From the NCBI RefSeq assembly GCF_029961185.1, contig NZ_JASBQQ010000003.1, positions 496,001-560,000 on the forward strand: 64,000 nucleotides of DNA, read 5' to 3'. Under the pieces are notes generated by a model that searched no databases, was not told the DNA's origin, and saw nothing but the letters and a program-made list of their open reading frames with translations. The stretch's first letter is position 1. The number at the start of each line of letters is the position of its first letter. A program made the translations under genes and the position numbers. Below are positions 51,808 through 62,894 of the stretch, piece by piece. Source of the stretch: Albidovulum aestuarii. Lineage in GTDB: Bacteria; Pseudomonadota; Alphaproteobacteria; Rhodobacterales; Rhodobacteraceae.

Positions 51808-53852
51808 AGGAGGACGAAGCCCTTGAACGGCTTGCGGATCGGATGGGGATTCTGCCGTCCTTTCACGATCTGGGCGGGACCAAACGGTGCATTTCCCCCG
51901 AAACTCAGAAAGCGCTCCTGCAGGCGAATGGCCTCGACGTGGGGTCAGAGGCCCTGATCAGAGAGGCCCTTGCCGAGGAAACCGCCCGCGACGAAGAGCG
52001 CACGTGCCCCGCGCAAGTGATCCTGAACAGTCGCGCACGAAGCGCGCTGGATTTCGGCGCGGGGGCCCAGTGGCGTCTTCATGACGACGGCTCCGATGGC
52101 GTTCTGGCGGAAGGGGGAGGTGAGGAATCCATAAGCCTGCCGCCGCTCCCCTCCGGTGTCTATGATCTTGTGGTCCAGTTCGCTGATCGCACCGAGACTG
52201 TGCTGGTTCTGGTGGCTCCGCCGCGGCTTCCGCAAGTTGAGGAGGTTACGCGCCGGGCGCGACTCTGGGGATTGAATGCAGCGTTGTATGGGCTGCAGTC
52301 CCATAGAAATGCAGGACTTGGCGATTATGAGGATCTGGCGCGTATTGGTGAAATTGCGGCCAGTCAGGGCGCCGGTTTCATCGGCATTAATCCAGTCCAC
52401 GCCATGGGCGCGGAAGAGGACGAGGCAATCAGCCCCTACTCGCCGTCGCATCGCGGGTTTCTGAACACAACGAATATTGCGCTGGATCGGATTCCGGGGC
52501 TGGGTGCATCAGTCACGGCCAGAGAGGTTCTGGAAAGGACACGCCTGAGTGCCGCCCGTCTTCGCGGATCTGCGCTGGTGCAATATGCCGACCACAGGGC
52601 TTTGCATCGCCCGGCGCTTGAAGCGTTGTACGAGGTTTACTGCCGCGAAGCGGATACCAACAGCCGGGCGGACTTCAGTTCCTGGGTCAATGCTGCGGGT
52701 CCGGACCTTTCGGCCTTCGCCGCGTATGAGGCGGCGACAGAGCAGCATGGCCCAGACTGGCGGGCATGGTCTGGCGAGGTGAAGAAGCTGGAACGAGCGG
52801 AGCCGGCGCCACGCCGGGCTCGTATGGAGTACCACAGTTGGCTACAGTGGGTTGCCGACCGGCAACTTACAGCTGCGCAAGAGCGGGTCCGGTCCCGGGG
52901 CATGGCGCTTGGCCTCTATGTCGACCTCGCTGTCGGCTCCCGGCGCGGGGGCGCCGAAACCTGGTGCGAGGCAGATGTCGTCGCCGAGGGCGTCTCGATC
53001 GGTGCCCCCCCGGACCATCTTAGCCCCGGTGGCCAGAACTGGAACCTCGCGGCCTTCGCGCCGAGAAAATTGCAGGCACGCAAGTACGCGCCGTTCCGCC
53101 GGATCCTGCAACAGTCGATGCGCAAGGCCGGGATATTGAGGATCGACCATGTGCTGGGGCTTATGCGCAGTTACTGGGTTCCCGATGACGGGAGCCCGGG
53201 CGGTTATGTCCGGCAACCCTTCGAGGCTCTAATCGCCCTCATAAAGATTGAGGCGGAGCGGGCAAGCGCAGTCGTTGTCGGAGAGGATCTCGGTCTCGTA
53301 CCGGAAGGGTTCCGCGCGCATATGCGGCAGAACGGTTTCTATGGGTATTCCGTTCTGCAATACGAAAAGGACCAGAGCGGGCATTTTCGGGACCCGTCGG
53401 ACTATGGATCACAGGTCCTGGCCTGCTTTGGTACGCACGACACCCCGACGCTTGCCGGCTTCGCCAAGGGCCGCGATATCGACTGGTGGCGCGGGCTGGG
53501 GTGGATCGGTGACGTGGACGAAGTGAAGGTCCGCGCGCGCCGCGCTGCCGATGTCGCCGTATTGGGCAATCTGGCCAAGAAAAACAATCGGTCGTCCGAT
53601 CCGGTCTTCCAATCCGTGCACACAGCCCTTGCCCGGTCGCCAGCGGAGCTCGTCGCCGTTCAGCTTGACGATGTCGTTGGTGAGACCGAGGCCCAGAACC
53701 TTCCGGGCACCATCGACGAACACCCGAACTGGCGCCGCAAATGCAAGGTGCCGCTTGACGCTTTCAGCGCAAGCGCGGAACTGCAGACCGTTGCCCAATG
53801 GATGCGGGATAGTGAGCGAGTTGCGAAACCAGCCGATCAGAAGGAGGCTTGA
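51804..53852 (+). CDS. malQ: 4-alpha-glucanotransferase (amylomaltase)
   Basis: A 682-residue GH77 enzyme that rearranges maltodextrins released by GlgX/GlgP. Evidence: RARLWGLNAALYGLQSHRNA then GLGDYEDL (conserved donor region), NPVHAMGAEEDEAISPYSPS, the nucleophile Asp in ILRIDHVLGLMRSYWVP, acid Glu in VVGEDLGLVPEG, and FGTHDTPTLAGF. The N-terminal 150 residues form the extra domain seen in proteobacterial MalQ. The start overlaps the glgX stop. Confidence 0.95.
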
Positions 53853-53853
53853 G

Positions 53854-55485
53854 ATGACATTCGAGACGGTGGCGACGCGTCCAATCAACGGTCAGAAACC
53901 GGGAACTTCGGGATTGCGGAAGAAGACCCGGATTTTCATGGGCGAACACTATCTTGAGAACTTCATCCAAGCGATCTTCAATGCTATCGGCGGGGCGGAC
54001 GGCAAGACATTCGTCGTCGGCGGCGATGGACGGTACTTCAACGCCGTCGCGATCCAGACGATTCTAAAAATGGCTGCGGCTAACGGCGCGGCAGAGGTCA
54101 TCGTGGGTCAGAACGGCCATTTGTCCACGCCCGCCGCCTCGCATCTTATCCGGCTTAACAAGACCGATGGCGGTATCATTCTTTCGGCCAGCCATAATCC
54201 CGGCGGCGTAGATGAAGATTTCGGCATAAAGTTCAATATTGCCAATGGCGGGCCAGCCCCCGAGGCGGTGACGGCGGCAATGCTCGATGCCAGCGAAACC
54301 ATTAACAGCTACCGGATCGCGCACCAGCCGGACGTCGATCTCGGGTCGATCGGCAGTGCCAAGATGGGCCAGATGAAGATCACCATTGTGGATCCGGTTT
54401 CCGACTATCGCGCCCTGATGGAAACGCTTTTCGACTTCCAGGCGATCAGGGCGATGTTTGCCGCAGGCTTCACAATGCGGTTCGACGCGATGCACGCCGT
54501 GACCGGTCCATATGCCAAGGCGATCCTTGAAGAGACGCTCGGCGCACCGCAAGGCACCGTGGTGAACTCTGTCCCGCTGGAGGATTTCGGCGGGGTGCAT
54601 CCTGACCCGAATCCAATCTGGGCGAAAACGCTGATGGACCTGATGATGTCAGGGGACGCCCCGGATTTTGGTGCCGCATCGGATGGCGATGGCGACCGAA
54701 ACATGATCGTCGGGCGCGGCCAGTATGTGACACCCTCCGACAGCCTCGCCGTCCTGCTCGCGAACGCCCATCTGGCGCCTGGCTACAAGGATGGCGTTGC
54801 TGGCGTCGCGCGGTCGATGCCGACCAGTGCGGCTTGCGACCGGGTGGCCGAAAGGTTGGGCGTCGAGTGTTTCGAGACGCCGACGGGCTGGAAGTTTTTC
54901 GGCAATCTCATGGATGCCGGCCGTGTGACGATCTGCGGAGAAGAAAGCGCCGGCACCGGGTCGAACCATGTGCGCGAGAAAGACGGGCTCTGGGCGGTTC
55001 TACTCTGGCTGAACATTCTCGCGGTCCGCAAGATATCCGTTGCCGAGATCCTGGCCGATCACTGGGCGGAATACGGGCGCAACTACTATTCACGGCACGA
55101 TTACGAGGCGGTCCCGGCCGTAGGCGCCAATCAACTGATTAACCACGTGATCGGGCAGCTGGCAGATCTGCCTGGAAAGTCCTTCCATGGCCTGACCGTG
55201 ACACGTGCGGACGAATTTTCGTACAGCGACCCTATCGATGGTTCGCAGAGCAGTCATCAGGGACTTCGTATTTGGTTCGAAGGTGGTGGTCGTGTTGTGT
55301 TGCGGCTGTCGGGAACCGGCACCGAGGGCGCCACCCTTCGGGTGTATCTGGAGCAGTACAGAGTACCGGGCGAAGACCTTCGGACAGATCCTGCTGTGGT
55401 TTTGTACCCGCTGAAGCAAGCGATCATTCAACTGACCAGTATGCATCACTTTATAGGTCGGACGGATCCTGACGTGGTGACCTAG
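53854..55485 (+). CDS. pgm: Phosphoglucomutase (alpha-D-glucose type)
   Basis: A 543-residue phosphohexomutase interconverting glucose-1- and glucose-6-phosphate, linking glycogen turnover to glycolysis. Marks: KPGTSGLRKKTRIF, phosphoserine loop ILSASHNPGG, metal loop DGDGDRN, CGEESAGTGSNHVREKDG and RLSGTGTEGATLRVYLEQY. The C-terminus GRTDPDVVT aligns with the normal end of E. coli Pgm, so the gene is full length. AAGGAGGC lies in front of the ATG. The last base of the TAG stop is the first base of the IS5-type element. Confidence 0.96.
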   Translation: MTFETVATRPINGQKPGTSGLRKKTRIFMGEHYLENFIQAIFNAIGGADGKTFVVGGDGRYFNAVAIQTILKMAAANGAAEVIVGQNGHLSTPAASHLIRLNKTDGGIILSASHNPGGVDEDFGIKFNIANGGPAPEAVTAAMLDASETINSYRIAHQPDVDLGSIGSAKMGQMKITIVDPVSDYRALMETLFDFQAIRAMFAAGFTMRFDAMHAVTGPYAKAILEETLGAPQGTVVNSVPLEDFGGVHPDPNPIWAKTLMDLMMSGDAPDFGAASDGDGDRNMIVGRGQYVTPSDSLAVLLANAHLAPGYKDGVAGVARSMPTSAACDRVAERLGVECFETPTGWKFFGNLMDAGRVTICGEESAGTGSNHVREKDGLWAVLLWLNILAVRKISVAEILADHWAEYGRNYYSRHDYEAVPAVGANQLINHVIGQLADLPGKSFHGLTVTRADEFSYSDPIDGSQSSHQGLRIWFEGGGRVVLRLSGTGTEGATLRVYLEQYRVPGEDLRTDPAVVLYPLKQAIIQLTSMHHFIGRTDPDVVT

Positions 55486-56337
55486 GCTCAGGACCCATTG
55501 AACTTGCGCGTGCGTCATGATTCAGCCTCCGCAAGGAGACTGAACGATGAGCAACCTTTTCTGGCTGACGGACGCGCAGATGGCGCGCCTGCAGCCCTTC
55601 TTTCCCAAGAGCCACGGCAAGCCGCGCGTCGACGACCGGCGTGTCCCGAGCGGCATAATCTTCATCAATCGCAATGGCTTGCGCTGGTGCGACGCGCCCA
55701 GGGAATATGGACCGCCGAAGACCCTCTACAACCGTTGGAAGCGATGGGGCGACAAGGGTGTCTTTGCCCGGATGATGGAGGGCCTGGCCTCCGAAGCGGC
55801 CGTTCCGAAGACGGTTATGATCGACGCGAACTATCTCAAGGCGCACCGCACGGCCACCAGCCTGCGGGCGAAAAAAGGGGATCTGGCGACAAGCAGGACC
55901 GCCTGATCGGCCGCACCAAAGGCGGCATGAACACCAAACTGCATGCCGTCACCGATGCCGATGTGCGACCGATCCGGTTCTTCATGACGGCCGGTCGGGT
56001 CAGCGATTACACCGGTGCGGCGGCCCTGTTGGACAGCTTGCCAGCGGCAGAATGGCTGTTGGGCGACCGTGGCTATGACGCCGACTGGTTCAGAGATGCG
56101 TTGAAACACAAGGGGATAATGCCCTGCATCCCGGGCCGGAAATCACGTGGCAAACCCGTCAAATATGACAAACGCCGCTACAAACGCCGCAACCGGATCG
56201 AGATCATGTTCGGGCGGCTGAAGGACTGGCGACGGGTCGCAACCCGCTACGACAGATGTCCGAAGGTCTTTCTCTCCGCAATCGCCCTGGCCGCAACCGT
56301 CATGTTCTGGCTATGAAACGAGAACGAGTCCTGAGCC
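55485..56337 (+). mobile_element. IS5-family (IS427-type) insertion sequence, about 853 bp
   Basis: Terminal inverted repeats are visible: GGCTCAGGACCCATT at the left (from 55485) and its partner ending GTCCTGAGCC (56328-56337) at the right, matching over the first ten bases. Between them lies a transposase split in two frames. The left end falls on the third base of the pgm stop codon. Flanks show no clear target duplication (TA on the left, GA on the right). The element is complete and could be active. Confidence 0.88.
55547..56316 (+). CDS. IS5-family transposase, two frames joined by -1 frameshift
   Basis: The first frame (55547-55906) encodes the N-terminal half, LTDAQMARLQPFFPKSHGKP through MIDANYLKAHRTATS (first catalytic Asp). 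The second frame runs from about 55876 to 56316 with RLIGRTKGGMNTKLHAV, GDRGYDADW (second Asp) and RNRIEIMFGRLKDWRRVATR (Glu). The run AAAAAAGGGG at 55871-55880 is where a -1 shift joins them into about 256 residues, as in the IS427 subgroup. Whether this is programmed shifting or a decay mutation cannot be decided here, but the location in a slippery run favours the former. Confidence 0.88.
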
Positions 56338-56558
56338 GAGCGAGGAAAAGACCCCCCTTATTGAATGCTTTCATTCGCGGCGGGACAGGCGCGTCTGGCA
56401 ACCGGCGAGAAGGTCTCGCAAGTTGGTTGGTGCGGCCCACTTGGCCACTCATTCCGGCCAGCGAAAAAACTGCGCAAGAAAGGAACGCAGAAAGTGCTTG
56501 GGGGCTCGCTTCAGGTGACCGTAACCTCGCGAGAGACCGGCCAAATGGGGACTGTCGG

Positions 56559-57515
56559 ATGAAGATCGCAGTAATGGGCGCAGGCGCGCTTGGCGGCTAT
56601 TTCGGAGGGCGGCTTGCTGCTGCAGGCCATGAGGTGACGCTGATTGCGCGCGGCGCTCATCTGGCGGCGATCCAGCGGAACGGCTTGCGCATCCTCAGCC
56701 CCAAGGGCGACCTGCACCTGCAAGGCATCGGCGCCACGGACGATCCCGCAACCGTCGGGCCAGTGGACGTAATCCTTTTCATGGTCAAGAACTATGACCT
56801 CGAACACGCTTCGCAGGCTATCCGTCCGATGCTCGGCCGCGACACGCTTGTGGTAACCTGCCAAAACGGTGTCAGTGCTCCGGATCGGCTGGCAGCGGCG
56901 ATCGGCGCGGCCCGTGTCGTGCCGGGGGTGGTGCGCATGCCGGCCGATATCCGCGAACCGGGGGTCGTGAGACACAGCGCCGAGGCCGAGATGTTCACCT
57001 TTGGGGAATTAGATGGCAGGACGTCGGACCGCGTGACCGGATTGCGAGACGCCCTGGTTGCAGCCGGCGTTAATGCGGTGATCCCGGACAGCATCCAGCA
57101 CGACCTTTGGGCCAAGTTTATCGTCCAGGCCTCGCTCGCCTCGATAACCACGCTAACCCGTCTGGATATCGGCCCGCTCAGGGAGCACCCGGCGACGAAA
57201 CAGCTCTTTCTCGATTCGATACAAGAAGCGGAACAGGTGGGGCGTGCCGTCGTTCCGGATCTGCCGGCTGGTTTGGTCGAAAACTCATGGGCTTTCCTGA
57301 ACAAGTTCCCGCCAACGATGCACGCCTCGATGCTGGACGATCTGCGCCGGGGTAAGCCGCTTGAAATCGACTATCTCGGCGGCGACGTGGTGCGGCTGGG
57401 CGCCGAATTGGGGGTAGCGACGCCAATACATGCGGTGTTCTACTCAGCACTCTTACCCTTCCGCGACGGTGCCCCAGCCGGAGCCAAAGGTGCGGGCCAA
57501 ATGGACAAGACTTAG
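56559..57515 (+). CDS. panE: 2-dehydropantoate 2-reductase family protein
   Basis: A 318-residue ketopantoate reductase-like protein. Evidence: MKIAVMGAGALGGYFGGRLA for NADPH, FMVKNYD and CQNGVSAPDRL (substrate Asn), DLWAKFIVQASLASITTLTR with the catalytic Lys, and LEIDYLGGDVVRLG with the acid Glu. It would reduce ketopantoate to pantoate. The family also has paralogues with other 2-keto acid substrates, so the role in pantothenate synthesis is probable rather than proven. ATG 56559 starts the Rossmann motif. No panB or panC gene is adjacent; a PanB-like gene lies 50 kb away in another operon. Confidence 0.85.
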   Translation: MKIAVMGAGALGGYFGGRLAAAGHEVTLIARGAHLAAIQRNGLRILSPKGDLHLQGIGATDDPATVGPVDVILFMVKNYDLEHASQAIRPMLGRDTLVVTCQNGVSAPDRLAAAIGAARVVPGVVRMPADIREPGVVRHSAEAEMFTFGELDGRTSDRVTGLRDALVAAGVNAVIPDSIQHDLWAKFIVQASLASITTLTRLDIGPLREHPATKQLFLDSIQEAEQVGRAVVPDLPAGLVENSWAFLNKFPPTMHASMLDDLRRGKPLEIDYLGGDVVRLGAELGVATPIHAVFYSALLPFRDGAPAGAKGAGQMDKT

Positions 57516-57951: not shown

Positions 57952-57978
57952 TGAAACTTTTTCCTGCCTGAATTCGTG
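57952..57978 (+). promoter_or_regulatory. ECF-type promoter motif, copy A (tiny secreted protein)
   Basis: GAAAC (57953-57957), 16 bases, TCGTG (57974-57978), with TTTT directly after the first box. The same boxes and spacing occur at 60988-61013 (minus strand) and 61262-61287. The predicted start near 57986 gives a leader of about 30 nt before the ATG at 58016. I infer recognition by the ECF sigma factor at 59868-60410. Confidence 0.75.
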
Positions 57979-58015
57979 ACTGGGTAACTGAACCAATCAA
58001 AGGGAGAAGACAGTC

Positions 58016-58234
58016 ATGAAGACGATCGTACTCAGTGCAGCAGTCCTTTGCATCGCGGCATCCGGCGCGATGGCCAAGGGCCACGACCAGGGCAACACAG
58101 CCGTTCCCGGTGCAGAAGACGTCGGCTCGGTGACCGTGTCCAACGCCCAGGCTCTTGGTGGGGCGAAGGGCAACAGGCCCGATGACAAGGGTCCGTCGGC
58201 GGGCAACCCGGCGACCTCAAAAGCCGGCCGCTGA
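58016..58234 (+). CDS. Tiny secreted protein of the ECF sigma locus
   Basis: A 72-residue protein with a clear signal peptide (MKTIVLSAAVLCIAASGAMA, cut before KGHD) and a mature part of about 52 residues rich in Gly, Asn, Lys and Asp (GHDQGNTAVPGAEDVGS). No domain is recognised. AAAGGGAGAAG precedes the ATG. It has its own promoter of the GAAAC-N16-TCGTG type and a strong terminator after it. It is probably an abundant periplasmic stress or matrix protein (inference). Confidence 0.8.
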   Translation: MKTIVLSAAVLCIAASGAMAKGHDQGNTAVPGAEDVGSVTVSNAQALGGAKGNRPDDKGPSAGNPATSKAGR

Positions 58235-58256
58235 CGGACAGCCGCCGCGTAACAAC

Positions 58257-58292
58257 TGCAATGGCCCGGTTCAAAGCCGGGCCATTGCATTT
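58257..58292. terminator. Bidirectional terminator between convergent genes
   Basis: TGCAATGGCCCGG (58257-58269) and CCGGGCCATTGCA (58277-58289) form a perfect 13-base stem with loop TTCAAAG, followed by TTTA. It separates the + strand secreted-protein gene from the convergent minus-strand ECF operon and could end both transcripts. It touches the DUF4198 stop codon (58291-58293). Confidence 0.8.
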
Positions 58293-59124
58293 ACGGCTCA
58301 ATATCAAATGAGACCGAGGCCCAGTGACTTTGCCAGACGACGCTGCCTGGCCCGTCCGCAGGTTCGATTCTCACGGCGTTGAGAAGATATTGACCCGTCC
58401 CGGGCATCGGAAACTCCGCGTAACCCTCGCCATCCGTTTCAACCAGGGTTCTGGTCGTGTCACCCGGTGCCGTTCCGCCGCTCGGCAGGTGGAACAGCGC
58501 AATCTGAATGTGCGGCGCGGCGGCGCCTTGCCACGTCAACCGAACGGTAAGGGTTCTTTTCCCGGCAATGAACGGCGTGCCGTCGACGACGATCTCGAAC
58601 GGCATGCCGGTTGGACGATCAACATCGCTGTTGCCGATGGAGCCGACCTGGATCAACGCGCGTGCATTCCGCAGGTACTCTTCGGCGACCCCGGTGTCCG
58701 GTAGTCCGCGTGCGCGATGGCGGTCCGCGATCTCGGTAAGACCTTCATAGGCAAGGTAGGCCTCGAACTCTGGCATCGTGTCGAAGACAATGTAGGCCGG
58801 ATGCGTCTCGACGGTTAGGATATGCAGACCGTTGCTGCCGAACGTCACGTCGTTGATGGCCGGGCGGTCTCCGAGCCTTGATGCAAGCGGCTCCACGCCT
58901 TCCCGCGAGACGTGCGTCATCGATCTGAATGTCGTGTCGAGATAGGGCAGGGCGGCACCGGACAGATCCTGCCCGACCCTGAGGTCGGCGGAAACACTTT
59001 CGCCCATCACGGGCCTGCCCGGACCGGCGTCGATCCAGAACTCATGTGCATCGAGCGGCTGCGAAGTCGCAACAAGGGCGATCAGGACAAGCTGCGCAAG
59101 GAATCTGGCGGGAATGGGTTTCAA
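58291..59124 (-). CDS. DUF4198-like periplasmic protein
   Basis: A 277-residue exported protein. From TTG 59124 it starts KPIPARFLAQLVLIALVATS then QPLDAHEFWIDAG, a signal peptide followed by the AHEFW motif typical of DUF4198 proteins, which are linked to metal (nickel/cobalt) uptake or found near TonB systems. A C-terminal immunoglobulin-like region has LTVRLTWQGAA and GEGYAEFPMPGTGQYLLNAV. CGGAGG lies seven bases before this TTG, favouring it over TTG 59172. It is the last gene of the ECF operon, 60 bases after the anti-sigma gene. Confidence 0.75.
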   Translation of the reverse strand: MKPIPARFLAQLVLIALVATSQPLDAHEFWIDAGPGRPVMGESVSADLRVGQDLSGAALPYLDTTFRSMTHVSREGVEPLASRLGDRPAINDVTFGSNGLHILTVETHPAYIVFDTMPEFEAYLAYEGLTEIADRHRARGLPDTGVAEEYLRNARALIQVGSIGNSDVDRPTGMPFEIVVDGTPFIAGKRTLTVRLTWQGAAAPHIQIALFHLPSGGTAPGDTTRTLVETDGEGYAEFPMPGTGQYLLNAVRIEPADGPGSVVWQSHWASVSFDIEP

Positions 59125-59184
59125 AGCATGGCCTCCGAGTTTCTTGTGGAAGACACGCACAGACAGGCTCAAGAGTTTCAGATG

Positions 59185-59871
59185 TCAGACGTCGCTGAAC
59201 TGCGCCGCGGCGACGATCGGCCCGGTCGGCGCACCTGACGGCGATCCCCCGGGCGGCTCCTCGGAGACGGCGATGGTTCCGGTCCGGACACCCGGCGCGA
59301 TGTCGTCCGGCACGCGAATCCGCGTAATCCCCTGGTTCTCGAGGAGGCCCAGCGAAACGGGTGCGTCGGCCCCCTCCGCGATCAGCCAGAGTTCATGCAC
59401 TCGCCCCTCCGGAGCTGTGCCTGTGACACGCTCGATCACGATCTCATGGGTAGCGGGAATGACGCCGGCCACCATCACCTGCGCGCGGTCTTCGGAGGCA
59501 AGCTCCGCCTGGAAGGCCACGGCGAGGTTTGGCTCCGGACCAAACGTCTCACCGAACAGAACGAACAGGAGCAGCCCCGCCGTAACTGCCCCGCCGGCAA
59601 TCCAGGCCCAGAGCGCCTGCGCGGGGCGTCGTGCCGGCGGTTCGCCGACGGACTGAAGGACTCGGCTTCGAAGCGTCTTCGATGGCGCTACCACCTCAAT
59701 GGCATCGGACAATGGCGACAGACGCTTTTCCCACGACCAGACGCGCACCTGAAGCTCACGATCCGTCGCGAGCCGCGCCTCGAAAGCCCGCCGCTCGTCG
59801 TCGTCGAGCAGGTGCAGGACGTACTCCGCTGCAAGGACGTCATCGTCATGTGCGTCTTCGGACTCGCTCAT
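59185..59871 (-). CDS. RskA-type anti-sigma factor
   Basis: The 228-residue protein has an acidic N-terminal helix set that binds sigma (DDDVLAAEYVLHLLDDDERR, then AFEARLATDRELQVRVWSWE), one membrane helix (about 86-107, ALWAWIAGGAVTAGLLLFVL) and a periplasmic anti-sigma-K domain with IVIERVTGTAPEGRVHELWL and GTIAVSEEPPGGSPSG. No zinc-binding HxxxCxxC motif is present, so sensing is probably through the periplasmic domain and regulated proteolysis. It overlaps the sigma gene by four bases (ATGA), the usual arrangement for a sigma/anti-sigma pair. Confidence 0.9.
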   Translation of the reverse strand: MSESEDAHDDDVLAAEYVLHLLDDDERRAFEARLATDRELQVRVWSWEKRLSPLSDAIEVVAPSKTLRSRVLQSVGEPPARRPAQALWAWIAGGAVTAGLLLFVLFGETFGPEPNLAVAFQAELASEDRAQVMVAGVIPATHEIVIERVTGTAPEGRVHELWLIAEGADAPVSLGLLENQGITRIRVPDDIAPGVRTGTIAVSEEPPGGSPSGAPTGPIVAAAQFSDV

Positions 59872-60410
59872 CGCGTCAGACAGTCTCTCAGTTTCATCAG
59901 GCTGCGCCGCAGCCAGGTTCTCATCGTGTTCAGCGGCACGTCGAAATGCTCCGCCAGATCCTTGTAGGTCTCCCCCTCCAGATAGACCGCCCGAACGGCA
60001 TCGGCCCTGTCGCTTTCCAGTTCGCCCATGCAGGCCTCGATCCGGGCGCGCTCCGAACTGGCGATCGCCGCGGCCTCGGGGCCCGGCCCGGCGTCGGCGA
60101 CAAGCGCCATCGCGTCGTCGCTGCCGGTCTCAGGTCGTCTTTTTCGAAGCCGGTCGATCGACATGTTCCGCGTCACGGTAATCAGCCAGGTCATCGGGCT
60201 GTGCCCCGTCACGGCGTAGGTATCGGCCTTCTGCCAGACCCGGACGTACACATCGTGCAGGACGTCTTCCGCTTCGCTTCTGTTCTGCAAGACACGCAGA
60301 CAGACACCGAAAAGTTTCGCGCTGGTGGCATCGTAGAGCGACGCAAGCGCGTCCCGGTCGCGCAACGTGATGCGCGCCATCATGTCTTCGATATCGGCGA
60401 TCGTTGTCAT
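59868..60410 (-). CDS. ECF-family RNA polymerase sigma factor (SigK/RpoE type)
   Basis: A 180-residue sigma-70 of the ECF class. Region 2: LYDATSAKLFGVCLRVLQNR, then SEAEDVLHDVYVRVWQ and MTWLITVTRNMSIDRLRKRR. Region 4: MGELESDRADAVRAVYLEGE, then YKDLAEHFDVPLNTMRTWLR. The start at 60410 (MTTIADIEDMMARI) fits the family; an upstream open frame to 60521 is ignored. It is preceded by a strong intergenic hairpin and the DUF7282-like gene and followed by its anti-sigma. I infer it reads the GAAAC-N16-TCGTG promoters around it, including that of its own operon. Confidence 0.92.
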   Translation of the reverse strand: MTTIADIEDMMARITLRDRDALASLYDATSAKLFGVCLRVLQNRSEAEDVLHDVYVRVWQKADTYAVTGHSPMTWLITVTRNMSIDRLRKRRPETGSDDAMALVADAGPGPEAAAIASSERARIEACMGELESDRADAVRAVYLEGETYKDLAEHFDVPLNTMRTWLRRSLMKLRDCLTR

Positions 60411-60475
60411 GGTATCTCGATGTGATCTCCCGCCGCCACCATTTGGCAGTGCGACGCGAAAGTCAAACAGGCGAA

Positions 60476-60510
60476 CGCCGCGCCGACGGAAGGTCTTCCG
60501 CGGCGCGGCG
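60476..60510 (-). promoter_or_regulatory. Strong GC hairpin between DUF7282-like and sigma genes
   Basis: CGCCGCGCCG (60476-60485) and CGGCGCGGCG (60501-60510) pair fully. CGGAA/TTCCG extends the stem inside. No T-run follows on the minus strand. It probably attenuates or processes the operon mRNA so that the first gene product is made in excess over the sigma factor. Confidence 0.6.
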
Positions 60511-60536
60511 CCACTCGCCACTCAAAAATCAGCGCG

Positions 60537-60956
60537 CTACTGTGCGGTGATCACACTCATCACAAGCTTGTCTTCGACCCGGATCGGCCCGTCCTCCTTC
60601 GCTCCGAGTGTATATTCGAAGACGCCGGTCGCCATGCCGCCGGATTCGCCGTGCACCATCAGCATCAGCATGTCTCCCGGGTTCACGGCTTCGGTAAGGA
60701 TCGCCGCGACATCGGTGTTTTCGCCGGCACGCAGCGGCGCATATCCGACGACCGGACCGGGCTTCATGTCGGCATCCGTCCGATGAACGACCAGCCAACC
60801 GTTCTCGCCCGCCGCCACTTTCTCAGCGGCGACGATGCCGTTTTCGACCGATTGATCGAACGCCATGACCATGGGTGCCATTCCGTGGCCGGCCGCGAGC
60901 GCCGCGCCGGCAGTGACGGTTGAGGCGACAAGGATTGTAAGGAAAGTGTGTTTCAT
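60537..60956 (-). CDS. Exported DUF7282-like protein, first gene of ECF operon
   Basis: A 139-residue protein with a signal peptide (MKHTFLTILVASTVTAGAAL, ending ALAAG) and one small beta-rich domain: FDQSVENGIVAAEKVAAGEN, GWLVVHRTDADMKPGPVVGY, then LMVHGESGGM and EDGPIRVEDKLVMSVI. This repeats the pattern of the DUF7282 family as I remember it. The function of that family is unknown. ATG 60956 lies about 24 bases after the predicted ECF promoter start. Its messages probably also carry the sigma and anti-sigma genes. Confidence 0.75.
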   Translation of the reverse strand: MKHTFLTILVASTVTAGAALAAGHGMAPMVMAFDQSVENGIVAAEKVAAGENGWLVVHRTDADMKPGPVVGYAPLRAGENTDVAAILTEAVNPGDMLMLMVHGESGGMATGVFEYTLGAKEDGPIRVEDKLVMSVITAQ

Positions 60957-60987
60957 GTGGTATTTCTCCGTTTTGGACAGACAAAGC

Positions 60988-61013
60988 CACGATTGATCGT
61001 CGGGAAAAGTTTC
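60988..61013 (-). promoter_or_regulatory. ECF-type promoter motif, copy B (sigma operon)
   Basis: On the minus strand GAAAC (61013-61009), 16 bases, TCGTG (60992-60988), again with TTTT after the first box. The predicted transcript begins near 60980 and covers the DUF7282-like, sigma, anti-sigma and DUF4198-like genes, so the sigma factor would be autoregulated. Confidence 0.75.
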
Positions 61014-61261
61014 GCGGGGACGAAGGATTTCTCGTGCCGGCGACAGCGCTGCTTTTCCGCCGGTCCGGACGCGCCTGCGAAGTTCAGCAAATGGCGGGCG
61101 AGCGCTCCGCATTGCGCTGGTCCAAAGCGACCGCCTGAAGCGCCCAGACTGGCCCGAACAAGAACCGGGCGATTGTCGGCGGCTTGCAGGTTCTGGCCAG
61201 TTCCAGAGATCCGAAGCCGTTGGATCGTCAGGATCGCACGATCATTCCTGTGAACTTTTTT

Positions 61262-61287
61262 GAAACTTTTGCGCCTGACGCCTCGTG
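61262..61287 (+). promoter_or_regulatory. ECF-type promoter motif, copy C (small protein and HupE/UreJ gene)
   Basis: GAAAC (61262-61266), 16 bases, TCGTG (61283-61287), with TTTT after the first box. Predicted start is near 61295, about 24 bases before ATG 61319. A partial duplicate, GAACTTTTTT, lies just upstream at 61252-61261. Confidence 0.75.
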
Positions 61288-61318
61288 TCTTCGCCTGAAG
61301 CCAAAGGAAGAGGCCCAG

Positions 61319-61465
61319 ATGCCCGGAAACAGAGACACGTCCAATCGCCTTCCGCCTGACACAACATCCCGGGAAGAATATGAGGCGCTTTTTCGGCGAG
61401 ACCTTCGGGAAAAGACCGAAATCGTGGCGAACCGGAACGAGGAAGATTTGAACTATGCGCATTAG
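61319..61465 (+). CDS. Small acidic protein upstream of HupE/UreJ gene
   Basis: A 48-residue hydrophilic protein (MPGNRDTSNRLPPDTTSREE, then YEALFRRDLREKTEIVANRN) with no signal peptide and no known domain. AAGGAAGAGG lies 6-14 bases before ATG 61319. Its position right after the copy C promoter and its 11-base overlap with the following membrane-protein gene suggest translation coupled to it. The same frame is open upstream to 61184, but those codons lie before the promoter. Confidence 0.65.
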   Translation: MPGNRDTSNRLPPDTTSREEYEALFRRDLREKTEIVANRNEEDLNYAH

Positions 61466-62894
61466 GACGTTGTCCCGAACTGCGGCGAGATTGATTTGCT
61501 CGGCTTTTGCATCGGCGCTTCTTGCGGCCTCTGCTGTGCAGGCGCACGAGGTCCAGCCTGTGGTAATGGACATGACTATAAGCGCCGACACCGTCGAAAT
61601 TTCAGCGGACTGGATGATCGAGACCGCAATTTCGGGTCTCGATCTGACCCATCTTCAGAACACCGCCGAGGCAGAAAACGACGTTGAGTATGACCGGCTT
61701 CGGGCACTGCAACCGGACCAGCTCGCCGAGGCCGTGAGCGCCGCCTGGCCCAGTATCGTATCGAAGCTCGAACTCTCAACAGGAGGCGAACGGCTTTCAC
61801 TAAAGCTGGAGGACATCGAGGCCGGCGATGTTGGCAATTTAAAGATAGCCCGGCTCTCCACGCTTCGGCTGTCGGCCTCTTTGCCTCCCGGTGACGCGCC
61901 GCTCGAATTCCGCGCTGCGCCTGAACTTGGACCCTTCGTGGTCCGACTGACCGGCGTGGAGAACGGCTATGCGGAGTTTCTTGCGCCGGGCATGTCATCC
62001 GGCGCGATCCCGCGCACGGGTGGCGAAGACCAGACGGCCAGCGCGGCGTTCGTCGACTACATCGCCGTGGGTTTCGATCACATCGTCCCGAAGGGGCTGG
62101 ACCACATCCTTTTCGTGCTTGGTCTCTTCTTCCTCTCGACCCGCATGGGGCCGCTCCTCTGGCAAGTCTCCGCCTTCACCCTGGCCCACACCGTGACGCT
62201 TGCCCTCGGCGCACTGGACATCGTGCGGATTCCGCCCTCGGTCGTCGAGCCGCTGATCGCCGCCTCCATCGTCTACGTGGGCGTCGAAAACGTGTTTTTT
62301 CGCAACCTGTCCCCCTGGCGCCCCTTCGTCGTGTTCGGCTTCGGCCTGTTGCACGGTCTCGGGTTTGCATCGGTTCTCATGGACTTCGGTCTCGGCGGTA
62401 CAAACTTCGTGCCGAAGCTGGTCGGCTTTAACGTAGGAGTGGAGATCGGGCAGCTTGCGGTGATCGCTGCCGCCTGGCTTACACTGAACTTCTTCTTCGA
62501 CCGGTACGAATGGTACCACCGCCGGATCGCGGTACCGGTGTCCGTTGCGGTTGCAATCATCGCCGCATTCTGGGTGTTGGAGCGCACGGGCGTTGTCGGC
62601 ACCGACGGGCCATTGGCGCTGTTCAGTGCTCTGACAGAGGGTGGGTTCGATCCGATCTGGGTTGCGGCGGCTGCTGCCATTTTTACCGCTGCGCTTGCCG
62701 GAGTTCAGTTGCTTTCGGGGACTATGGAAAAGCTCAAAGAGTTTTCAGGAATGCTTACCTCGCTCCTGATGTTCCTCTTGCTCGTCGCGGCCTTCACATC
62801 AGGCGCGTGGGTCATGTGTGTTCTTGTGGCCTTGGCATGGGTGTTAGCGCTTCGGATCCAATCATTTAGCGGACGCGACGAAGCCGTCGCATAG
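61455..62894 (+). CDS. HupE/UreJ-type membrane protein with N-terminal periplasmic domain
   Basis: A 479-residue protein: signal peptide (about 1-30, ending VQAHE), a periplasmic domain of about 170 residues, then 6-7 membrane helices with the HupE/UreJ marks VGFDHIVPKGLDHILFVLGL, FTLAHTVTLALGALD, AASIVYVGVENVFF, GFGLLHGLGFASVL and FNVGVEIGQLAVI. His and Asp residues in these helices are the expected metal sites. HupE/UreJ proteins are nickel/cobalt permeases, though this long subgroup is less well characterised. It is driven by the copy C ECF-type promoter, linking it to the adjacent sigma factor. Confidence 0.85.
   Translation: MRIRTLSRTAARLICSAFASALLAASAVQAHEVQPVVMDMTISADTVEISADWMIETAISGLDLTHLQNTAEAENDVEYDRLRALQPDQLAEAVSAAWPSIVSKLELSTGGERLSLKLEDIEAGDVGNLKIARLSTLRLSASLPPGDAPLEFRAAPELGPFVVRLTGVENGYAEFLAPGMSSGAIPRTGGEDQTASAAFVDYIAVGFDHIVPKGLDHILFVLGLFFLSTRMGPLLWQVSAFTLAHTVTLALGALDIVRIPPSVVEPLIAASIVYVGVENVFFRNLSPWRPFVVFGFGLLHGLGFASVLMDFGLGGTNFVPKLVGFNVGVEIGQLAVIAAAWLTLNFFFDRYEWYHRRIAVPVSVAVAIIAAFWVLERTGVVGTDGPLALFSALTEGGFDPIWVAAAAAIFTAALAGVQLLSGTMEKLKEFSGMLTSLLMFLLLVAAFTSGAWVMCVLVALAWVLALRIQSFSGRDEAVA

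Follow-up and report, generated by a model that had tools for sequence, protein, structure and literature searches.

One of the closest described counterparts of the locus reported here is the sigH-rshA pair of Corynebacterium glutamicum, for which the available text of one study reports a SigH-controlled promoter, PrshA, that lies inside the sigH coding region and drives only rshA, with fast shut-off as its proposed role (PMC3489674). Our locus lies in a 64,000-nucleotide (nt) stretch of the Albidovulum aestuarii genome (4,242,458 bases), hereafter the window, and encodes a sigma factor of the extracytoplasmic function (ECF) type together with its RskA-like anti-sigma factor. As in C. glutamicum, a putative sigma-controlled promoter of the anti-sigma gene is found within the sigma coding region, in sense orientation, upstream of the anti-sigma gene and matching the other promoter sites of the sigma factor. 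The two systems differ in ECF group and promoter consensus, and C. glutamicum sigH itself is, according to the same text, read from housekeeping promoters; moreover, the evidence for PrshA is experimental (Northern blot and primer extension, one species), whereas we infer the present element from conservation across many genomes (PMC3489674).

A second point of comparison is the mycobacterial SigK/RskA/MPT70-MPT83 system (ECF19), which resembles our locus in having a SigK-type sigma factor, an RskA_C anti-sigma factor and adjacent genes behind a common motif, and in that relatives of the window encode a secreted fasciclin protein of the MPT70/MPT83 type 3' of rskA. RskA-like proteins hold their sigma factor until a signal releases it, and the mycobacterial SigK promoter consensus is CCATCC/CCGAAT. 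The sites described here (GAAACT-N16-CGTG) do not match that consensus, and the window differs further in having DUF7282, DUF4198 and HupE-like genes and no fasciclin gene. To our knowledge (our search was not exhaustive) no intragenic promoter copy has been described in SigK genes, and a literature search covering mostly papers open without subscription found no account of a promoter inside sigma genes of the SigK type or of Rhodobacterales, from which we do not claim absence from print. In Mycobacterium tuberculosis, sigK is autoregulated via the promoter of an upstream gene, as stated in the available part of the source (PMC7509140). The ECF regulons of Sinorhizobium meliloti are likewise those of alphaproteobacterial ECF factors, small and locus-centred, with autoregulation; their promoter sequences are different, and neither ECF19 nor fasciclin appears in the available passages of that work (PMC6180224).

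We propose, with a probability of roughly two in three for the explanation as a whole (regulon plus intragenic rskA promoter), that the SigK/RskA-like pair of the window governs a compact regulon in its own neighbourhood and that a promoter within the sigma coding sequence would drive rskA as negative feedback. Three exact promoter sites had already been seen in a preliminary description of this DNA; what is new is the conserved copy inside the sigma gene, which synonymous codon choice strongly supports as a DNA element kept under selection in the clade.

The first set of orthologues examined comprised 101 sigma genes, of which 97 were left after removal of identical or contained ones. The second, a non-random set, consisted of the 29 loci that matched best in the phylum draw once the window itself was set aside, reduced to 26 by dropping three duplicates, and we also used a distant set (20 loci, 19 after one duplicate was dropped) and a paralogue set (20 loci, 19 after exclusion of one that was unaligned). 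GAAACT and CGT at the exact spacing were present in 67/97 genes of the first set, where 5000 within-gene synonymous permutations gave a mean of 1.31 and a maximum of 7, and in 25/26 of the second (permutation mean 0.53, maximum 4). The boxes were also found in 8/19 distant alphaproteobacterial homologues, with 0.31 expected by synonymous permutation, and when the first set was thinned to <70% protein identity GAAACT and CGTG were retained in 15/26 genes vs. 0.34 expected. Species with exact copies of both boxes include Roseovarius amoyensis (L128) and Nioella nitratireducens (L151). No other GAAACT-N16-CGT occurred on the sense strand of the same sigma open reading frames (ORFs; 75,867 nt), and none antisense. 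Paralogous ECF genes of the same family had the boxes in 0/19 aligned sequences and CGT in 1/17 aligned Arg codons, and homologues in other classes used CGC, CGT and CGG for this residue in 9, 5 and 3 of 17 cases.

The bias can be followed codon by codon. Relative to usage elsewhere in the same genes, Arg39 is CGT in 74/84 orthologues (8.9% of Arg codons elsewhere), Lys32 is AAA in 74/95 (33%), Leu41 is TTG in 60/95 (18%) and Leu33 is CTG in only 10/97 (46%). Among 111 columns ranked by departure from codon usage, Arg39 was second. The first was Arg180 (CGA), because its last base belongs to the ATGA in which the rskA start codon overlaps the sigma stop, and it therefore serves as a natural positive control. 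The most informative single test of a link to the intergenic promoters is position 29 of the motif, the first base of Leu41: T was found there in 57/67 genes with the boxes vs. 12/30 without (p 1.6e-5), and G at position 7 in 0/67 and 14/30, respectively. Codon departures fall at motif positions 1, 4, 7, 25, and 29 and are small at 10, 13, 16, 19, and 22; over 12 wobble-type positions, departure correlates with the information content of the intergenic sites (Spearman 0.73, p 0.007, table values taken by hand). Leu25 (about 60336-60338), which is outside the motif, is also strongly biased (CTT 43% vs. 17%).

The element belongs to a cluster of five sites, which is laid out as follows (positions are those of the window).

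57953..57981, + strand: promoter site 1, GAAACT-N16-CGTG with T at position 29, 37 nt 5' of a small secreted-like ORF
58016..58234, + strand: small ORF of 72 residues with a signal-peptide-like start (gene calls); no match in Pfam or NCBIfam
58291..59124, - strand: DUF4198 protein (Pfam PF10670, E 8.7e-21), TTG start inferred from the reading frame
59151..59179, - strand: promoter site 2, 29 nt 5' of the DUF4198 gene; GAAACTCTT, GCGTG
59185..59871, - strand: anti-sigma factor gene rskA, RskA_C domain (Pfam PF10099, E 1.1e-16; NCBIfam NF052375 over cut-off)
59868..60410, - strand: SigK-like ECF sigma factor, 180 residues (Sigma70_r2 and r4_2; NCBIfam NF009167/PRK12514)
60290..60318, - strand: intragenic promoter site 3, in sense orientation, sigma codons 31-41 (A-K-L-F-G-V-C-L-R-V-L)
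60470..60519, - strand: predicted strong hairpin between the DUF7282 and sigma genes (fold of 60411-60540, -61.6 kcal/mol, z -2.89)
60537..60956, - strand: DUF7282 secreted-like protein (Pfam PF23951, E 7e-17), first gene of a presumed DUF7282-sigma-rskA operon
60985..61013, - strand: promoter site 4, 31 nt 5' of the DUF7282 gene
61262..61290, + strand: promoter site 5, 31 nt 5' of a 48-residue ORF and a HupE/UreJ-like gene
61319..61465, + strand: ORF of 48 residues (gene calls); no family match in Pfam or NCBIfam
61455..62894, + strand: HupE/UreJ_2 family membrane protein (Pfam PF13795, E 4.9e-48)

The preliminary description had claimed three exact copies of GAAACTTTT-N12-TCGTG about 25-40 bases before start codons, and the motif does occur exactly three times in the window (57953-57978, +; 60988-61013, -; 61262-61287, +), the sites ending 37, 31, and 31 nt before one. 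Exact copies were absent from 100 dinucleotide shuffles of the window (mean 0.00, largest 0), and at ≤3 mismatches there were eight matches vs. a shuffle mean of 3.03 (largest 7). Its count was nevertheless incomplete, as it missed two further sites, one with a single mismatch inside the sigma ORF (60293-60318, -) and one with two mismatches 29 nt before the DUF4198 gene (59154-59179, -). Its boxes were drawn too long: what relatives conserve is the core, GAAACT-N16-CGTG plus T at position 29, and neither the full nine bases of the left box nor the T that opens TCGTG.

Across the whole genome 17 matches were found at ≤2 mismatches (three exact, one with one mismatch, and 13 with two). All four matches with ≤1 mismatch lie in the cluster, as does one of the 13 two-mismatch matches, the number of which is at the level of a reversed control pattern (14 matches at ≤2 mismatches, 2 at ≤1). 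A relaxed box, GAAACTNTT-N13-CGTG, has six perfect genome matches, five in the cluster, and the consensus refined on relatives, GAAACT-N16-CGTG-N-Y-T, also has six, five of them in the 3.3-kb cluster, with none for its reversed control. The genome scan that the preliminary description suggested thus finds the refined consensus almost confined to the cluster, and the many random copies inside genes that it regarded as contrary evidence were not found genome-wide. A regulon elsewhere in the genome was rejected, the sole refined match outside the cluster being in the coding sequence of a LysR-type gene. The suggestion that this motif serves the sigma factor as cognate promoter is supported by the confinement of the motif to the cluster, its presence in the loci of relatives and the fact that the genome yielded no second SigK-like sigma (after the sigma itself, the best match had E 2.1e-16 and 28% identity), and we consider the sites very probably to be promoters of the adjacent sigma. 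The cluster looks like a local, locus-confined five-site regulon of the SigK/RskA-like pair, as judged from its sequence, and its promoter is of a type usual for ECF sigma factors.

For the survey of relatives, 80 loci were taken from a scan of named genomes and 20 from the genomes of relatives, with ≤1 box mismatch allowed in counts on the named loci. A site was identified before DUF7282 in 20/22 named loci having this gene, before the small1 gene in 6/6 with a small1 match, before DUF4198 in 3/6 having that gene, and just 3' of rskA in 38/80; ten ORFs behind such sites were scanned, of which three were fasciclin and three DUF4394 proteins. A slightly wider pattern, applied to related genomes as the preliminary description had also suggested, yielded 98 intergenic sites at 75/96 non-identical loci, adjoining rskA, fasciclin, DUF4394, DUF7282, or small1 genes. 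Of these sites 82 had GAAACT and 87 had CGTG, and T at position 29 was present in 98/98, though it was absent from the search pattern. The closest named relative at the locus is Defluviimonas sp. WL0002 (sigma protein 94% identical), and site 5 is present in the sister locus L076 with the left box GAAACC.

Some relatives depart from this promoter type. Several relatives of the window's genus have GCAACT...CGTA as the promoter before the fasciclin gene, and seven loci (L085, L087, L089, and L091-L094) have intergenic CGTA beside a fasciclin gene, six of them with the left box GCAACT, which is an apparent shift in promoter specificity in a sigma factor about 50% identical. Neither intergenic nor intragenic sites of the GAAACT-N16-CGTG type were found at five loci of the Maliponia/Antarctobacter/Mameliella type (L136, L137, L142, L147, and L148), and the sigma factor there may use another promoter. 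At four distant loci (L223, L228, L233, and L277), DUF7282 or the sigma gene is preceded by GAAAC(C/T)-N15-CGTA, the spacer of which is one base shorter than in Rhodobacterales. A different kind of target is seen in a Poseidonocella sp., where an RTX-type calcium-binding repeat protein (L139:5352-6704, -) is encoded behind a site of the same motif type.

By its Pfam, NCBIfam, and PDB matches the pair is SigK/RskA-like. The 180-residue sigma factor has only regions 2 and 4.2 (PF04542 and PF08281, both over gathering scores), and its top match among 15 PDB sequences was SigK (4nqw, E 5.2e-22). Its best NCBIfam model was NF009167/PRK12514, the function of which is unnamed (273.7 bits, cut-off 265), and it scored 130.8 bits against the SigK model PRK09646, under the cut-off of 226 for that model. 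The anti-sigma factor had no PDB match at E 0.01. A fasciclin (MPT70/83-like) target beside rskA, which is a usual but not strictly defining feature of SigK/RskA systems, is not in the window; Pfam identifies a fasciclin gene at this position in relatives (e.g., L118, L106, and L130).

In the mechanism that we propose, release of the sigma factor by RskA would allow the holoenzyme to transcribe four flanking units, namely those for the small secreted-like protein, for DUF4198, for DUF7282 followed by sigma and rskA, and for the 48-residue ORF with the HupE-like protein. Free sigma would possibly also transcribe its own operon via the DUF7282 promoter. From the intragenic site, which lies about 420 nt 5' of rskA, a transcript would start that includes rskA but not the start codon of sigma, so that the anti-sigma factor would rise relative to sigma in proportion to active sigma and the response would be shut off or bounded. 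A Shine-Dalgarno-like sequence is present 5' of rskA beyond synonymous expectation in 115/131 genes, and a transcript lacking the sigma start could therefore be translated. The autoregulation of the sigma operon that was predicted in the preliminary description is plausible but indirect, because the DUF7282 gene and the predicted hairpin lie between site 4 and sigma: the site at 60988-61013 directly precedes the DUF7282 gene, and sigma starts 126 nt after that gene, behind the hairpin. The hairpin is a possible attenuator or processing element, as judged from its predicted fold. The intergenic stretches of other DUF7282-sigma loci likewise fold (mononucleotide z about -1 to -5).

Several observations weigh against an intragenic rskA promoter. 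The arrangement of the window (DUF7282 upstream, same strand) keeps the boxes in only 6/20 loci, window included, vs. 61/77 elsewhere (p 5.9e-5, uncorrected for relatedness); that is, the retention at synonymous sites holds for the clade and not for the window's own gene arrangement. On one reading, a sigma-driven promoter of the upstream operon would make an internal promoter less needed in the DUF7282 arrangement, but the boxes are retained in 9/13 loci with DUF4394, an arrangement in which an upstream site is likewise frequent. In the sister L076 (94% identical) both intragenic boxes are lost (GAAGCT, CGGG) and all four intergenic sites kept. Candidate intergenic sites in three distant alphaproteobacteria (L223, L228, and L233) have, by our reading, a 15-base spacer where the intragenic sequence has 16, and in other classes of the phylum the boxes were found in only 3/20 homologues. 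The rows compared are related, and a tree shows 15 state changes on 142 rows with only five supported independent pairs. The correlation of codon departure with intergenic information falls to 0.50 (p 0.07) once Leu33 and Arg39 are included with their first bases, and the Shine-Dalgarno-like pairing of rskA is weak in the window (-2.9). Covariation at the last base of the -10 box was dropped as support: it was clean in the first set, where the intragenic site had CGTA in 7/7 loci with intergenic CGTA vs. 4/54 with CGTG (Fisher 7.6e-7), but is contradicted in the second, where intergenic CGTA goes with intragenic CGTG at L254-L260, so that seven loci disagree vs. six that agree (L264-L267, L269, and L270; counted by eye). 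Taking these points together with the codon evidence, we think that the intragenic copy probably works as an rskA promoter in the clade, and rate as even the chance that the window organism still uses it. We also think it somewhat more probable than not that SigK/RskA-like sigma genes, in Rhodobacterales and in alphaproteobacteria beyond them, hold in their region-2 codons a conserved anti-sigma promoter that is retained more widely than several of the regulon's intergenic promoters.

The intragenic match might instead be a coding coincidence, in which the motif arises by chance from conserved residues of region 2 (K-L-F-G-V-C-L-R-V-L) and the codons inherited for them, and has no promoter function. 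These residues are common in ECF sigma factors, the one genome match outside the cluster, in the LysR-type gene, likewise encodes A-K-L-F, CGT is kept in distant loci that lack an intergenic promoter of the same spacing, and the sister genome has lost the boxes. We nevertheless regard coincidence as quite unlikely, since synonymous permutation expects 1.3/97 and 0.5/26 where 67 and 25 were observed, the T at position 29 seen in 98/98 intergenic sites predicts the odd TTG codon of Leu41, and the same residues are mostly coded with CGC (9/17) in other classes. It is also conceivable, if unlikely, that the intragenic site binds the holoenzyme as a barrier or pause and so represses the sigma operon, with no rskA promoter involved. 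The net sign, negative feedback, would be the same, and there is a precedent in Sigma-E of Streptomyces coelicolor, for which the available text reports direct repression and 92/193 intragenic sites in chromatin immunoprecipitation (PMC10771440). A barrier fits less well with boxes, spacing, and downstream T that match the presumed active intergenic promoters, or with rskA lying directly downstream behind its own Shine-Dalgarno-like sequence in most loci.

A promoter at this position could also have a different product, an N-terminally truncated sigma factor comprising the region 4 part, which would compete for promoters or titrate RskA. The transcript would span the rest of the sigma ORF, in which there is an in-frame Met within a GHSPMTW stretch; however, this Met is in a generally conserved stretch of the protein and no dedicated start signal at it came to light, no test having been aimed at one, and we give this possibility little credence. 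Similarly improbable, in our view, is that another ECF sigma factor or other regulator uses the sites in place of the adjacent sigma. Many ECF groups share GAAAC and CGT boxes, and there are six other ECF matches in the genome at E up to 0.001, but the refined sites are confined to the locus and travel with the adjacent sigma in 75/96 loci of relatives.

The intragenic rskA promoter and its regulon would, if true, extend the sigH/PrshA design of C. glutamicum to a second ECF group and across many genera, with the coding sequence of an activator doubling as a regulatory element of its own brake. A promoter would thereby be defined for a widespread, little-studied sigma factor in a form open to direct test, and its coexistence with protein coding in a conserved sigma region would explain an otherwise odd codon choice. 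A feedback device of this kind, within coding sequence, would be missed by promoter surveys of intergenic DNA.

Outside the cluster, the window contains an IS4/IS5-type transposase in two overlapping frames at 55498-56316 (DUF4096 part 55547-55906, DDE part 55498-56316), which sits between a phosphoglucomutase gene (53551-55485) and a ketopantoate reductase gene (56256-57515).

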